Shown here piece by piece: positions 8,683-31,127 of a stretch of 64,000 bases of DNA. Location of the stretch: contig NZ_SPFY01000006.1 of assembly GCF_005844325.1 (NCBI RefSeq), forward strand, positions 1-64,000, in the 5' to 3' direction. The notes under the pieces are model-generated. The model ran no database searches and had not been told where the DNA came from. It was given only the letters and a program-made list of their open reading frames with translations. Within the stretch, counting starts at the first letter, position 1; each line of letters opens with the position of its first letter. The DNA is from Collinsella aerofaciens. GTDB taxonomy: Bacteria > Actinomycetota > Coriobacteriia > Coriobacteriales > Coriobacteriaceae. Both the position numbers and the translations under genes were made by a program.

Positions 8683-9333
8683 ATGCGTGACATTCATTGC
8701 CATATCTTGCCGGGTGTAGACGACGGCGCCGCCGATCTCGATGAGAGCTTGGCGATGCTCGAGGCTGCCAAGCGGGCCGGTGTAACCAGAATCGTTTGCA
8801 CTCCTCACTGCCGTGATCCCTATTTTGATTACGACAAGATGTGGGATGCCTTTGAACTGCTGCGTGATAACGCTGACGGTTTTCCGCTCCAGATGGGCTT
8901 CGAGGTCAACCATCGAAAGCTCGTTGAACTTGGTATCGATGCCGCGGAGCACTTGCATTTCGATGGAACCAACGAGTTTCTGCTCGAGCTTTCGACGCAT
9001 GCCGATGCGTATGCGTTTAGAGAGTACGAGAACACGATTTACGATTTGCAGTGCCGTGGCTACCAGGTGATCATCGCTCATCCTGAGCGCTATCGTGCGG
9101 TTCAAAAGGATGTAAGCGTGGCGGAGCGCCTGGTCGATATGGGCTGCAAGCTGCAGGCTTCGGCGGACTTTATTGCCGGCGGTCGCTTTGGTCGCGAAAA
9201 AAAGCCGGCACAGCGCCTGTTCGATCAGAACCTGTACAGCTTCATCGCGAGCGATGCCCATAACGTGGGTCATTACGACTGCCTGGCGAAGGCTCGCGCG
9301 AAGTTTAGCGTGCGCGGAGCTCATTTTCGCTAA
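8683..9333 (+). CDS. Tyrosine-protein phosphatase (CpsB/CapC/YwqE, PHP fold)
   Basis: 216-residue manganese-type phosphatase that dephosphorylates the BY-kinase tail. It opens with the PHP metal motif HCHILPGVDDGAAD, followed by RIVCTPHCRDP, an AHPERY motif and a final SDAHNVG metal motif. It completes the kinase/activator/phosphatase triad. Normally glycosyltransferase and wzx/wzy genes follow; here an unrelated acetyltransferase follows, so the polymer locus must be elsewhere or absent. Confidence 0.9.
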   Translation: MRDIHCHILPGVDDGAADLDESLAMLEAAKRAGVTRIVCTPHCRDPYFDYDKMWDAFELLRDNADGFPLQMGFEVNHRKLVELGIDAAEHLHFDGTNEFLLELSTHADAYAFREYENTIYDLQCRGYQVIIAHPERYRAVQKDVSVAERLVDMGCKLQASADFIAGGRFGREKKPAQRLFDQNLYSFIASDAHNVGHYDCLAKARAKFSVRGAHFR

Positions 9334-26249: not shown

Positions 26250-26287
26250 CGGCTGCGGTTCCGTTTGGGATCGCGGCCGTTTTGTTG
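26250..26287 (+). terminator. Terminator-like hairpin in the larA leader
   Basis: CGGCTGCG (26250-26257) pairs with CGCGGCCG (26272-26279), extended inward by five more pairs around loop GTTT, then TTTTGTTG. TTGACC at 26218-26223 with a weak -10 17-18 bases on could be the promoter, leaving this hairpin between promoter and gene (attenuator layout). Confidence 0.5.
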
Positions 26288-26405
26288 TGGGTCAAATATG
26301 AACGTTGTGTTAATGACTCGGTGGACGGTGGTGTTTTTCGGTGAGCGGCGTATCCTTCCAACGGTTTATCTAGTGTGTCAGTTGAAAGGAAGAGGGCGCT
26401 CGTCA

Positions 26406-27683
26406 TTGTTTGAATGTGAACTACCGTTTGACCACAAGACGTTGCATCTAGAGCTCGAGGATAAGAACTTCGTGGGTGTGATGGAAGGTCATCAAAACGA
26501 GTTTAAGACTACAAAATCGCAGGAAGAGCTGGTAGAAGAGTCGCTTGCCAACCCTTACGGCTCACCTTCGCTCGAGGAGCTTTGTGCTGGCAAGAAGGAT
26601 ATTGTCATTATTAGCTCCGATCATACGCGTCCCGTCCCCTCGCGTGTGACGATGCCTATTCTGCTGCATCACATCCATTCCGCTGCGCCCGAGGCTCGCG
26701 TGCGCATTCTGGTTGCTACGGGTATGCACCGTCCGTCGACGCACGAGGAGCTCGTCAACAAGTACGGCGAGGAGATCGTTGCCAACGAGGAAATCGTTAT
26801 GCACGTCGCGACTGACGACAGCATGATGAAAAAGATCGGCACCCTGCCTTCTGGCGGCGAGTGCATCATCAACAAGATTGCGGCCGATTGCGATCTGCTG
26901 CTTGCCGAGGGCTTTATTGAGCCGCACTTCTTTGCTGGCTTCTCTGGCAGCCGCAAGTCCGTGCTGCCCGGCATTGCCAGCTATAAGACCATCATGTACA
27001 ACCATAACGGTCAGTTTGTGAACGATTCCCATTCGCGTGCCGGCAACCTGTGCCACAACCACGTGAGCGAGGACATGTTTGCCGCTGCCGAGATGGCTCA
27101 CCTTGCCTTTGTGCTTAACGTGGTGCTCAACGGCAAGCACGAGGTCATCGGCTCCTTTGCCGGCGATATCCACAAGGCGCACGAGGCTGGCTGCGAGTTC
27201 GTGAAGAGCCTTGCCGGCGTTGAGCCCGTTGAGTGCGAGATTGCCATCACCACCAACGGCGGCTACCCGCTCGACCAGAACATCTACCAGGCCGTGAAGG
27301 GCATGTGCTCTGCCGAGGCCACGCTTCCCGAGGGCGGCGTGATTATTGATGTCGCCGGTTGCGCCGACGGTCACGGTGGCGAAGGCTTCTATCACAACAT
27401 CGCCGACAACGATCCGGCGGAGTTTGAGCGCGCCTGCATCGACCGTCCTAAGGACGAGACCCTGCCCGACCAGTGGACGAGCCAGATTTTCGCCCGCATC
27501 CTGGCGCATCACCCTGTGATTATGGTCACCGACCTGTGCGATCACCAGATGCTCAAGGATATGCACATGACGCCGGTCAACACTATCGAGGAGGCGCTCA
27601 AGCTCGCCTTTGAGATGAAGGGTGCCGATGCCAAGGTTGCCGTCATTCCCGATGGCCTGGGCGTTGTCGTCGCGCAGCACTAG
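26406..27683 (+). CDS. larA: Nickel-pincer lactate racemase LarA
   Basis: 425-residue enzyme interconverting D- and L-lactate (or a related 2-hydroxy acid) with a nickel-pincer nucleotide covalently bound to Lys. Starting at TTG 26406, the residues align exactly with Lactiplantibacillus plantarum LarA numbering: His108 in ATGMHR, His174 and Lys184 in EPHFFAGFSGSRKS, His200 in MYNH. That supports this start, which also has GGAAGAGGG 9 bases upstream; in-frame codons upstream to 26265 add unrelated residues. It is 49 bases ahead of the MIP-channel gene. Cofactor genes larB and larC lie on the opposite strand at 29.3-31.0 kb; larE is not in the window. Related DUF2088 racemases act on other substrates. 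Confidence 0.92.
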   Translation: MFECELPFDHKTLHLELEDKNFVGVMEGHQNEFKTTKSQEELVEESLANPYGSPSLEELCAGKKDIVIISSDHTRPVPSRVTMPILLHHIHSAAPEARVRILVATGMHRPSTHEELVNKYGEEIVANEEIVMHVATDDSMMKKIGTLPSGGECIINKIAADCDLLLAEGFIEPHFFAGFSGSRKSVLPGIASYKTIMYNHNGQFVNDSHSRAGNLCHNHVSEDMFAAAEMAHLAFVLNVVLNGKHEVIGSFAGDIHKAHEAGCEFVKSLAGVEPVECEIAITTNGGYPLDQNIYQAVKGMCSAEATLPEGGVIIDVAGCADGHGGEGFYHNIADNDPAEFERACIDRPKDETLPDQWTSQIFARILAHHPVIMVTDLCDHQMLKDMHMTPVNTIEEALKLAFEMKGADAKVAVIPDGLGVVVAQH

Positions 27684-27732: not shown

Positions 27733-28464
27733 ATGCTTACCAAACTCCTCTGCGAATTCGGCGCAACGGCCCTCATGATCATCTTTGGCGTGGGCGTACA
27801 CTGCGATACCGTGCTTAAGGGCACCAAGTATCAGGGCTCCGGCCACATGTTTGCCATCACCACCTGGTCTTTTGGCATCTCGGTCGCTCTGTTTATCTTT
27901 GGCGGCGCCGTGTGCATGAACCCCGCCATGGTGCTTGCCCAGTGCATCGTAGGCCTGGTGCCGTGGAGCAGCTGCATTCCCTTCATGATTGCCGATATGC
28001 TCGGCGGCTTTGCGGGCGCCGTGATTGCGTGGTTGATGTATGCCGATGAGTTCAAGGCTTCCGATGGCGTCGTCGACCCCATTGCCCAGCGCAACATCTT
28101 CTCGACCAACCCCACCACCGAGGGTACGAACTACGCCCGTAACTTCTTCTGCGAGGCTATCTGCACCTTTGTGTTCATCAGCGCCATCCTCGCTGCCGCT
28201 AGCCGCGCCGGCGAGAACGTTCTGATGCTCGCCATCTGCGTCGGCCTGATCGTTTGGGCCGTTGGCATGGGCATGGGCGGCATCACCGGCTTCGCCATGA
28301 ACCAGGCTCGCGACCTTGGTCCTCGCATGGCCTATCAGGTGCTGCCGATCAAGAACAAGGCTGACAACAACTGGAAGTACGGCCTGCTCGTTCCTGGCAT
28401 CGCTCCGTTTGTCGGTGCCGCTCTGGCTGCACTGTTTGTGCACGGTTTCTTGGGCATGTTCTAG
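27733..28464 (+). CDS. MIP-family channel, LarD-like (aquaglyceroporin)
   Basis: 243-residue inner-membrane channel with six helices. The first pore half-helix has CMNPAMV (NPA motif); the second has FAMNQARDLGPR, where the usual NPA is NQA. The ARDLGPR context is that of glycerol facilitators. In lactobacilli a MIP protein (LarD) of the lar operon passes lactic acid, and the position directly after larA suggests the same job here. It ends 23 bases before a cruciform repeat. Confidence 0.85.
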   Translation: MLTKLLCEFGATALMIIFGVGVHCDTVLKGTKYQGSGHMFAITTWSFGISVALFIFGGAVCMNPAMVLAQCIVGLVPWSSCIPFMIADMLGGFAGAVIAWLMYADEFKASDGVVDPIAQRNIFSTNPTTEGTNYARNFFCEAICTFVFISAILAAASRAGENVLMLAICVGLIVWAVGMGMGGITGFAMNQARDLGPRMAYQVLPIKNKADNNWKYGLLVPGIAPFVGAALAALFVHGFLGMF

Positions 28465-28766: not shown

Positions 28767-29306
28767 TTAGTTGAAGAGGGGTTTTATGGCTGAGAGGTAG
28801 TCTTTGGCTACGTCCTCTTTTGGGGCTTGGAAGTTGTGCCAGGCCCACCATTGGACCATTCCTACGAAGCTTGAGGCTATGTGGTGTAGTAGGAAGCTTC
28901 GGTCCATGGTGGCGGCGGGGCCGTTTGGGTCGGTAGGGACGGTTTCGGCTGCGCGCGACATGATGGTCTTGCGGAGGCAGTCGGCGAAGACGCGTGAGCC
29001 GGCGCCGGCTACGAGGGCTCGAACGCCCTGGCGGCGCTCCCAGAGGTTGTTGAGGATATGCTCGACCTGTACGAGCGGGTCATCGAGGGGCGTACCGTCA
29101 TCGTCGAGGGCATGGGTGCAGATGTCGCGCACGAGCTCAGCGAGCAGGTCATCTTTGCTCTTGAAGAGGCCGTAGAACGTGGCCCGACCCACATGGGCGC
29201 GAGCAATGATGTCGCCGACGGTGATCTTGCCGTAGTCCTCCTCGCGAAGGAGCTCGGAAAACGCCGCAACGATGGCGGCACGGCTTTTTGCCTTGCGGGC
29301 ATCCAT
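28767..29306 (-). CDS. TetR/AcrR-family regulator of the lar region
   Basis: 179-residue repressor-type protein. The N-terminal HTH is typical (KITVGDIIARAHVGRATFYGLFKSKDDLL, about residues 26-54), and the rest is a ligand-binding helical domain. Its ATG lies two bases after the larC stop, so it is co-translated as the last gene of larB-larC-tetR. A 32-bp inverted repeat at the larB promoter (31059-31090) is the likely operator (inference). The ligand may be lactate or nickel-related, but this is not visible. Confidence 0.88.
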   Translation of the reverse strand: MDARKAKSRAAIVAAFSELLREEDYGKITVGDIIARAHVGRATFYGLFKSKDDLLAELVRDICTHALDDDGTPLDDPLVQVEHILNNLWERRQGVRALVAGAGSRVFADCLRKTIMSRAAETVPTDPNGPAATMDRSFLLHHIASSFVGMVQWWAWHNFQAPKEDVAKDYLSAIKPLFN

Positions 29307-29308
29307 GG

Positions 29309-30220
29309 TTATGCGTCCGCGTCAACGAGCAGGCAGCGGAGCGTACCGGAGCAACCCTCGTAGGGGCGCTTACCGGCGCCGTAGCCGACGGCCTCGATGC
29401 GGTAGCGGGCCGGCAGGTGCTCGGACGTGCGCAGCGCGGCGACGATGGCGGCGCCCGTGGGCGTCACGAGCTCGCCGGCGACCGGTGCAGGCGTGAGGGC
29501 GATATTGCCCGCCTGACACAGGTTGACGACAGCGGGGACGGGAATGGGCATGAGGCCGTGGGCGCAGCGGATGGTGCCGTGGCCCTCGGAGAGCGACTCG
29601 ACTACGATGTCCTCAATACCCAGGTCGTCGAGGCAGATGGCGACAGAGCAGACGTCGACGATGGAGTCGACGGCGCCCACCTCGTGGAACATGACGGTGT
29701 CGGGCGTTTTGCCGTGAGCCTTTGCCTCGGCAGCGGCGAGTGCGGAAAAAATGGCGAGGGCGCGACGCTTGGCGCCATCGCTTAGCTGTGAACCGTCGAT
29801 GATGGCGGTGACGTCCGCCAAAGAGCGGTGGTGATGGTGGTGGGCGTGATGATGGCCCTCGTGGCCATGGCCGTGGGCCTCATGCTCATGCGTGTGCTCG
29901 TGTTCGTGCTCGTCATGGTCATGATGATGGTGTTCGTGCTCATGTGCGTGCTCGGCAGCTGCTTCGTTGCCGTAGAGCCAGGCCATGTCGTGGTCGTGGT
30001 TCTCGAGCCCCTCTGCCAACTGAACGTCAAAGTCGCAGGCGTCGATGCCATGCTTGTTTACGCGCGTTACAGCGATCGAAAAGCCGTCGACCGGCAGCGT
30101 GGCGAGCTGTTCGCGCAGGTGCTCCTCGCTGGCGCCCAGGTCGAGCAGGGCCGCGACGGTCATATCGCCGCTGATGCCCGAAGTGCCGTCGATGATAAGC
30201 GTGTGCTGATGGTTGGACAT
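29309..30220 (-). CDS. larC: Nickel insertion protein LarC, N-terminal (LarC1) form only
   Basis: 303-residue protein of the LarC family, the CTP-dependent nickel insertase that completes the LarA cofactor. The family start (IIDGTSGISGDMTVAALLDLGA) and core (FHEVGAVDSIVDVC, TPTGAAIVAAL, GYGAGKRPYEG) are clear. Residues 75-131 are a histidine-rich stretch with about 26 His, a likely nickel reservoir. The protein stops after the GYGAG region, where other LarC proteins continue with a C-terminal domain (LarC2, starting near a TNIDDM motif) that binds CTP. In L. plantarum LarC2 is joined by frameshifting; here the next bases encode the TetR gene. AAGGAG precedes the start. Confidence 0.9.
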   Translation of the reverse strand: MSNHQHTLIIDGTSGISGDMTVAALLDLGASEEHLREQLATLPVDGFSIAVTRVNKHGIDACDFDVQLAEGLENHDHDMAWLYGNEAAAEHAHEHEHHHHDHDEHEHEHTHEHEAHGHGHEGHHHAHHHHHRSLADVTAIIDGSQLSDGAKRRALAIFSALAAAEAKAHGKTPDTVMFHEVGAVDSIVDVCSVAICLDDLGIEDIVVESLSEGHGTIRCAHGLMPIPVPAVVNLCQAGNIALTPAPVAGELVTPTGAAIVAALRTSEHLPARYRIEAVGYGAGKRPYEGCSGTLRCLLVDADA

Positions 30221-30230
30221 GGAATGCTCC

Positions 30231-31013
30231 TTAACGGGCGCAGGATGTGCCGGCGCTCAGATGATTGATAAGACTTGCCTGGTAGGCGGCACCAAAGCCG
30301 TTATCGATATTGACGACCGATACGCCGCTGGCGCAGGAGTTGAGCATGGCGAGCAGCGCGGCTACGCCTCCAAAATTTGCGCCGTAGCCCACGCTGGTGG
30401 GAACGGCGATGACCGGACAGCTCACCAGACCGCCGATAACGCTCGCCAGGGCGCCCTCCATGCCGGCGATGGCGATGACCACCTGCGCCTGGGCAAGTTC
30501 CTCGGCATGCGCGAGCAGGCGGTGCAGGCCTGCGACACCTACGTCGTAGAGGCGGTCGACCTCGTTGCCATAGAATTCGGCCGTCAACGCGGCTTCCTCG
30601 GCGACGGGCAGGTCGCTCGTACCGGCGCAGGCGACAACGATGCGTCCGTTGCCGGTAGGGGAGGGCTTGCCGCCCACGAGGGCGAGCTGTGCGTCTGGGA
30701 CATATCCCAGGTCGATGCCGTTGCCGAGGAGCTTCGAGGCGCGGGCTGCCTTTTCGGCGTCCAGGCGCGTGACCAGGATGCGCACCTGGCCGGCATTGAG
30801 TAATGCTTTGATAATGGCGGCAATCTGCTCGGCGGTTTTACCGGCGCCGTAGACAACCTCGCCGGCTCCCTGGCGCACCCCGCGCGAAAGATCGAGCTGC
30901 GCAAAACCCAGATCGGCGGTTGGCGCCGTCTGGAGGCGCGTGAGGGCGACTGCCGGGGTGACTACTCCGTCGGCAACATCGCTCAGCAATTGCTCAAGAT
31001 CTCGCTTATCCAT
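30231..31013 (-). CDS. larB: LarB, pyridinium-3,5-biscarboxylate mononucleotide synthase
   Basis: 260-residue cytosolic enzyme that carboxylates and hydrolyses nicotinic acid adenine dinucleotide in the first step of the LarA cofactor pathway. It is related to PurE; the C-terminal half shows VVIAIAGMEGALASVIGGLVSCPVIAVPTSVGYG and the LLAMLNSCASGVSVVNIDNGFGAA ending. The ATG at 31013 has GAAGGGAA 6 bases upstream. It heads the operon larB-larC-tetR, with 10- and 2-base gaps. Confidence 0.93.
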   Translation of the reverse strand: MDKRDLEQLLSDVADGVVTPAVALTRLQTAPTADLGFAQLDLSRGVRQGAGEVVYGAGKTAEQIAAIIKALLNAGQVRILVTRLDAEKAARASKLLGNGIDLGYVPDAQLALVGGKPSPTGNGRIVVACAGTSDLPVAEEAALTAEFYGNEVDRLYDVGVAGLHRLLAHAEELAQAQVVIAIAGMEGALASVIGGLVSCPVIAVPTSVGYGANFGGVAALLAMLNSCASGVSVVNIDNGFGAAYQASLINHLSAGTSCAR

Positions 31014-31058
31014 ATATGTTCCCTTCGACGGCGCAAAGTCTAGCACTCAAAGGGTATG

Positions 31059-31090
31059 TTTCCGAACACTAAGACAAAATTGTTCGGAAA
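31059..31090. promoter_or_regulatory. Inverted repeat at the larB promoter, likely TetR operator
   Basis: TTTCCGAACA (31059-31068) and TGTTCGGAAA (31081-31090), perfect 10-base arms 12 bases apart, lie 46-77 bases upstream of the larB start. The spacing suits two turns of a TetR dimer pair or a wide operator. No copy is seen upstream of larA. Confidence 0.6.
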
Positions 31091-31127
31091 CTATAGGACA
31101 GACTGATTCTCTTGTTAGAAAGATCGA

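Follow-up and report, generated by a model that had tools for sequence, protein, structure and literature searches.

A LarC nickel-insertion enzyme probably encoded by two distant genes in Collinsella aerofaciens

The window, the whole stretch of 64,000 nucleotides of Collinsella aerofaciens DNA that was analysed, carries a lar locus whose larC gene ends after the first domain (LarC1). The locus raises the question of how nickel is inserted into the lactate racemase of this organism. A preliminary description of the sequence left two readings: either the gene of the second, CTP-binding domain (LarC2) lies elsewhere, or LarC1 acts on its own.

The standalone LarC1 matches the Pfam profile PF01969 at positions 1-234 of 375 (E 1e-80) and the NCBIfam model TIGR00299 nickel_LarC1 with 193.7 bits (cut-off 90). 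The motifs GISGDM, FHEVGAVD, HG.MP.P, ELVTPTGA and G.GAG, expected of a LarC cyclometallase, are present, as are the residues invariant across 32 LarC1s. In alignment, the C-terminus (...VGYGAGKRPYEGCSGTLRCLLVDADA*) falls where the LarC1 half of fused LarCs ends. The larC1 stop, a 2-base gap and the tetR start read TAA CC ATG, so that the early end described for this gene is borne out. A sequencing error at this point, which the preliminary description had named as a possible refutation, is excluded because 18 other genomes have the stop at the identical position, followed by the same 2-base gap. The AlphaFold model of LarC1 has a mean pLDDT of 84, with disorder mainly in residues 86-128. A fold search of this model against the PDB gave no match at E <= 0.001, and the sequence match among solved structures is PDB 12bi, a full-length LarC that may postdate the structures covered by the fold search.

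The protein contains 35 His, most of them in one acidic stretch (Table 1) whose content of 26 exceeds the maximum per 57 residues in 10,000 shuffles of LarC1, which was 17. The count given for the supposed His reservoir is confirmed, but the stretch is not special to the window LarC1, because its relatives, one-chain LarCs included, also have His-rich stretches; the LarC1 half of fused Collinsella/Enorma LarCs holds 16-50 His. Such stretches are ordinary for the LarC family, and nickel storage as the role of this one is a guess.

Table 1. Features of the lar genes in the window and elsewhere in the genome (positions without a prefix refer to the window).
Feature	Position	Strand	Basis or remark
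larA, nickel-dependent lactate racemase; the TTG at 26265 probably lies upstream of the real start	26265-27683	plus	NF033504 Ni_dep_LarA, 598.7 bits (cut-off 460)
larD, D/L-lactic acid channel	27733-28464	plus	NF043012 LarD, 418.6 bits (cut-off 390)
tetR-family regulator, 2 bases past the larC1 stop	28767-29306	minus	PF00440, E 1.7e-10
larC1, standalone gene, 303 aa; covers the whole N-terminal half of LarC up to the domain boundary	29309-30220	minus	ATG start
His-rich acidic stretch, LarC1 residues 75-131, 26 His and 14 Asp/Glu	29828-29998	minus	residue count
larB, upstream gene of the larC1 operon; the ATG at 31013 is the likely start	30231-31046	minus	NF033503 LarB, 285.9 bits (cut-off 175)
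Inverted repeat GTTTCCGAACA-N12-TGTTCGGAAAC, upstream of larB	31058-31091	no strand	conserved across larC1 loci
larC2, standalone gene, 161 aa	L003 8226-8711	minus	ribosome-binding-like GGAAAGGAG before ATG
larC2, profile match	G000:C55:72261-72680		PF01969, 162 bits
larE	G000:C12:24896-25771		213 bits (cut-off 150)

The inverted repeat upstream of larB is exact in both arms at most larC1 loci and in one arm or both at every one of them, and is a possible operator of the neighbouring TetR. An operator shared by the larB operon and larC2 was considered and rejected: the repeat is absent at the larC2 loci, and for this reason the two halves may not be co-regulated. Within the window no LarC2-like sequence or remnant was found (best tblastn E 0.29), and tetR follows larC1 after 2 bases, which leaves no frameshifted LarC of the Lactobacillus plantarum type at this locus.

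The missing domain is located elsewhere in the genome. The source assembly consists of 60 contigs with a total length of 2.19 Mb and a completeness of 99.94%. Searched with PF01969, it contains exactly two matches, one covering positions 1-235 of the profile on contig C57 and the other positions 237-375 on contig C55. The two partial matches lie on different contigs and do not form a one-chain LarC, and no full-length LarC was found by this search, although a separate full-length copy had been named as the other possible refutation. A LarC2 profile built from 15 rows also gives a single LarC2 in this genome. By sequence, the closest relative of the encoded protein among solved structures is L. 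plantarum LarC2 (6bwo), with an identity of approximately 40%. An AlphaFold model of the protein (pLDDT 90) fits 6bwq at 1.4 A with a TM score of 0.93. Residues invariant across 35 LarC2s are kept, e.g. D27, K57, R60, G89, K117 and E131. The domain also resembles the PII/CutA fold, with weak scores.

The genome search proposed in the preliminary description thus returned one standalone larC2 and one larE. The absence of LarC2 and LarE holds for the locus only; the genome encodes LarA, LarB and LarE as well as the LarC2 domain. Judged from the genes, the pathway of LarB, LarE, LarC1, LarC2 and LarA, together with the LarD channel, is complete and scattered over three loci.

The same arrangement was looked for in 37 Collinsella genomes, the source genome included. 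Both standalone halves are present in 17 of them, a fused LarC in 15 and neither in three, with one genome holding LarC2 only (G004) and one, a 72% complete genome, LarC1 only (G028). Where both halves lie on one large contig they are 616-621 kb apart (2.117 versus 1.496 Mb in G014; 1.132 versus 0.517 Mb in G025). Within the group formed by C. aerofaciens and its close relatives, every near-complete genome keeps both halves together except G004. In this genome larC1 may simply be unassembled, because the larA contig breaks 35 bases into larD. A strong LarA and LarE occur in every split-LarC genome tested, and LarB in all of these but G004; on the other hand, in G015 LarC, LarA, LarB and LarE are all missing. 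Pairwise dN/dS is 0.076 across 18 genomes for larC2 and 0.106 across 19 genomes for larC1. These values show strong purifying selection on both genes, neither of which is decaying, and the split arrangement is fixed in the C. aerofaciens complex.

The genomic context indicates how the lone larC2 may have arisen. The common gene order in other Collinsella is his genes - (PHP) - larB - larC (fused) - yfcE - mazG - eno. Exactly this site, between PHP and yfcE-mazG, is taken by the lone larC2 in the aerofaciens group, where larB and the first half of larC are missing from it. The LarC2 start, SPLSRETDAPETIVKLECDIDD, matches the linker of the Collinsella bouchesdurhonensis fused LarC, PSLSAETQAPNCIVKLECDIDD, and the lone gene starts inside the former linker of a fused LarC. 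Upstream of it, a search for a remnant of the LarC1 half gave nothing convincing (best E 0.012, strands inconsistent). As for the surroundings of this gene, the interval between larC2 and the PHP gene contains a long inverted repeat (AAACATGTACATCAGCCTCCAAA...TTTGGAGGCTGATGTACATGTTT, L003 about 8848-8912) that resembles a terminator or a small mobile repeat. Approximately 4 kb of extra sequence separates the same two genes in two genomes (L066/L101 and L061/L097), and the site looks insertion-prone.

In maximum-likelihood trees the standalone LarC2 nests among the fused LarC2 of Coriobacteriaceae (support 100/99) and adjoins C. bouchesdurhonensis at 87/71. The standalone LarC1 lies outside the clade of Coriobacteriaceae fused LarC1 (96/86) and is placed, with support of only 93/78, beside a fused LarC from a different family of the order (G038). 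By these separate placements, larC1 and larC2 are the complementary remains of two different ancestral LarCs. The LarC1 lineage probably also lost a second half, because its nearest relatives in the sample are fused LarCs. Two lar loci occur in C. bouchesdurhonensis (L039, L073): one with a fused LarC that has lost its neighbouring larB, the other a copy of the lar locus in the window. This second locus was probably transferred recently between species, since it shares 87-96% DNA identity with the window versus 78-79% for the adjoining ppc and serB. The view of C. bouchesdurhonensis as a simple frozen intermediate is weakened by this probable transfer.

Taken as a whole, the LarC nickel-insertion enzyme of C. 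aerofaciens is very probably encoded as two separate polypeptides from distant genes that act in trans. LarC1 would be supplied by the larB-larC1-tetR operon, the CTP-binding LarC2 by the lone gene and LarE by a third locus. The two LarC chains would then associate and jointly perform the CTP-dependent nickel insertion of the one-chain LarC. That enzyme cytidinylylates P2TMN with CTP, inserts nickel and hydrolyses the intermediate, and its CTP dependence is established (PMC11796402 and work cited there). Regarding the history of the system, a lineage with an ancestral larB-larC locus would have gained a second lar locus, that of the window, with the first half of larC only. Subsequently, the old locus would have shed larB and its own LarC1 half, and LarC2, which the new locus could not supply, would have stayed.

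LarC genes of other bacteria bear on the alternatives. LarC occurs in 183 of 299 sampled genomes of a clostridial phylum, with neighbouring larC1 and larC2 in about 20 and both unlinked in four. The family of G195 comprises 46 genomes, 42 of them with any PF01969 match and about 22 with LarC1 and neither LarC2 nor a full LarC by this profile. G195 itself has larE-larB-larC1 in a row (L179 3992-6481) and a strong LarA, and no LarC2 was detected there by the 15-row profile at E <= 1. This family is a candidate for a LarC2-free nickel-pincer pathway, outside C. aerofaciens. Further LarC1-only genomes are G294 (L180 3971-4705), where larC1 lies between groEL and guaA, and G306 (L181 3803-4768) and G082 (L182 531-1388), where it lies beside parB-type genes. 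All three have LarA homologues, and no LarC2 was found in them by profile.

The LarC1-only clostridial genomes, together with the weak PII/CutA resemblance of LarC2, favour the reading in which LarC1 alone inserts nickel in C. aerofaciens while the lone LarC2 has taken on a different function, e.g. as a CTP sensor. This reading is nevertheless improbable: the near-complete genomes of the aerofaciens group keep both halves apart from the contig break in G004, the tested genomes without LarC are also without the rest of the pathway, LarC2 retains the residues invariant in bona fide LarC2, and LarC is known to depend on CTP. Of the two readings in the preliminary description, the one placing LarC2 elsewhere is right (contig C55). 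The other, with LarC1 alone, finds no support in this organism, because every near-complete genome of the group retains larC2 under purifying selection. Equally doubtful is the related claim that LarC1 catalyses nickel insertion unaided, with LarC2 being dispensable or regulatory. If it were true, the unlinking in Collinsella and the apparent absence of LarC2 from about half of the clostridial family would be steps of one trend, and the view of LarC2 CTP binding as essential would be overturned.

A broken larC whose halves are relics of a non-functional pathway would agree with the fact that neither half is a whole LarC. This explanation is very improbable given the low dN/dS over 18-19 genomes, two intact open reading frames with ribosome-binding-like sequence, and intact larA, larB, larD and larE. 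Least credible, to the point of being nearly discounted, are a programmed frameshift that joins LarC1 to LarC2, the way in which L. plantarum makes its LarC, and an assembly error behind the split. The two genes are on different contigs or, in near-closed genomes, separated by approximately 0.6 Mb, larC1 is not followed by any LarC2 sequence, and the arrangement is repeated in 17 genomes.

A LarC acting in trans from two distant genes would constitute a natural experiment suggesting that the LarC domains need not be one chain. Each domain can be purified, swapped and assayed alone, which gives access to the share of LarC1 and of the CTP-binding LarC2 in an unusual organometallic reaction. The contrast with clostridial genomes seemingly without LarC2 makes the requirement for this domain directly testable, and if LarC1 can work alone, the G195 family is the place to look. 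The case also illustrates that a pathway judged from one locus leads to wrong calls of missing genes.

The larC1 and larC2 of L. plantarum are adjacent reading frames joined by a programmed frameshift. The resulting LarC has the same two domains and, in the LarC2 structures 6bwo, 6bwq and 6bwr, the same fold as the C. aerofaciens protein, whereas the C. aerofaciens halves are unlinked genes that cannot be joined. The LarC of Moorella thermoacetica, a single chain examined in studies that PMC11796402 cites, and the one-chain LarCs of other Collinsella/Enorma have the same domain order and conserved motifs as the two halves. The fused LarC of other Collinsella, at whose site the C. aerofaciens larC2 is found, is however one polypeptide, and its LarC1 half is only about 44-58% identical to the window LarC1. 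MK0293 of Methanopyrus kandleri (3c19) is a standalone LarC2-like protein whose fold matches that of the C. aerofaciens LarC2 (E 1e-10); unlike the latter, it is archaeal, and the PDB lists it as uncharacterized. The four clostridial genomes with unlinked genes (G274, G311, G129 and G192) resemble C. aerofaciens in having LarC1 and a standalone LarC2, at distant positions or on separate contigs, with no full-length copy, but belong to a separate lineage; no LarA was found in G274. In Anaerobutyricum soehngenii, larC1 and larC2 are likewise two separate genes (EHLA_1342 and EHLA_1341), both detected in the proteome (PMC7702098). There the genes are neighbouring, as inferred from the consecutive locus tags, whereas the C. 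aerofaciens halves are distant and of different ancestry. In a literature search covering open-licence papers, unlinked larC1 and larC2 with reciprocal domain loss appear undescribed. Separate larC1 and larC2 genes were known before, and what appears new here is their location at distant loci together with the reciprocal loss of domains.
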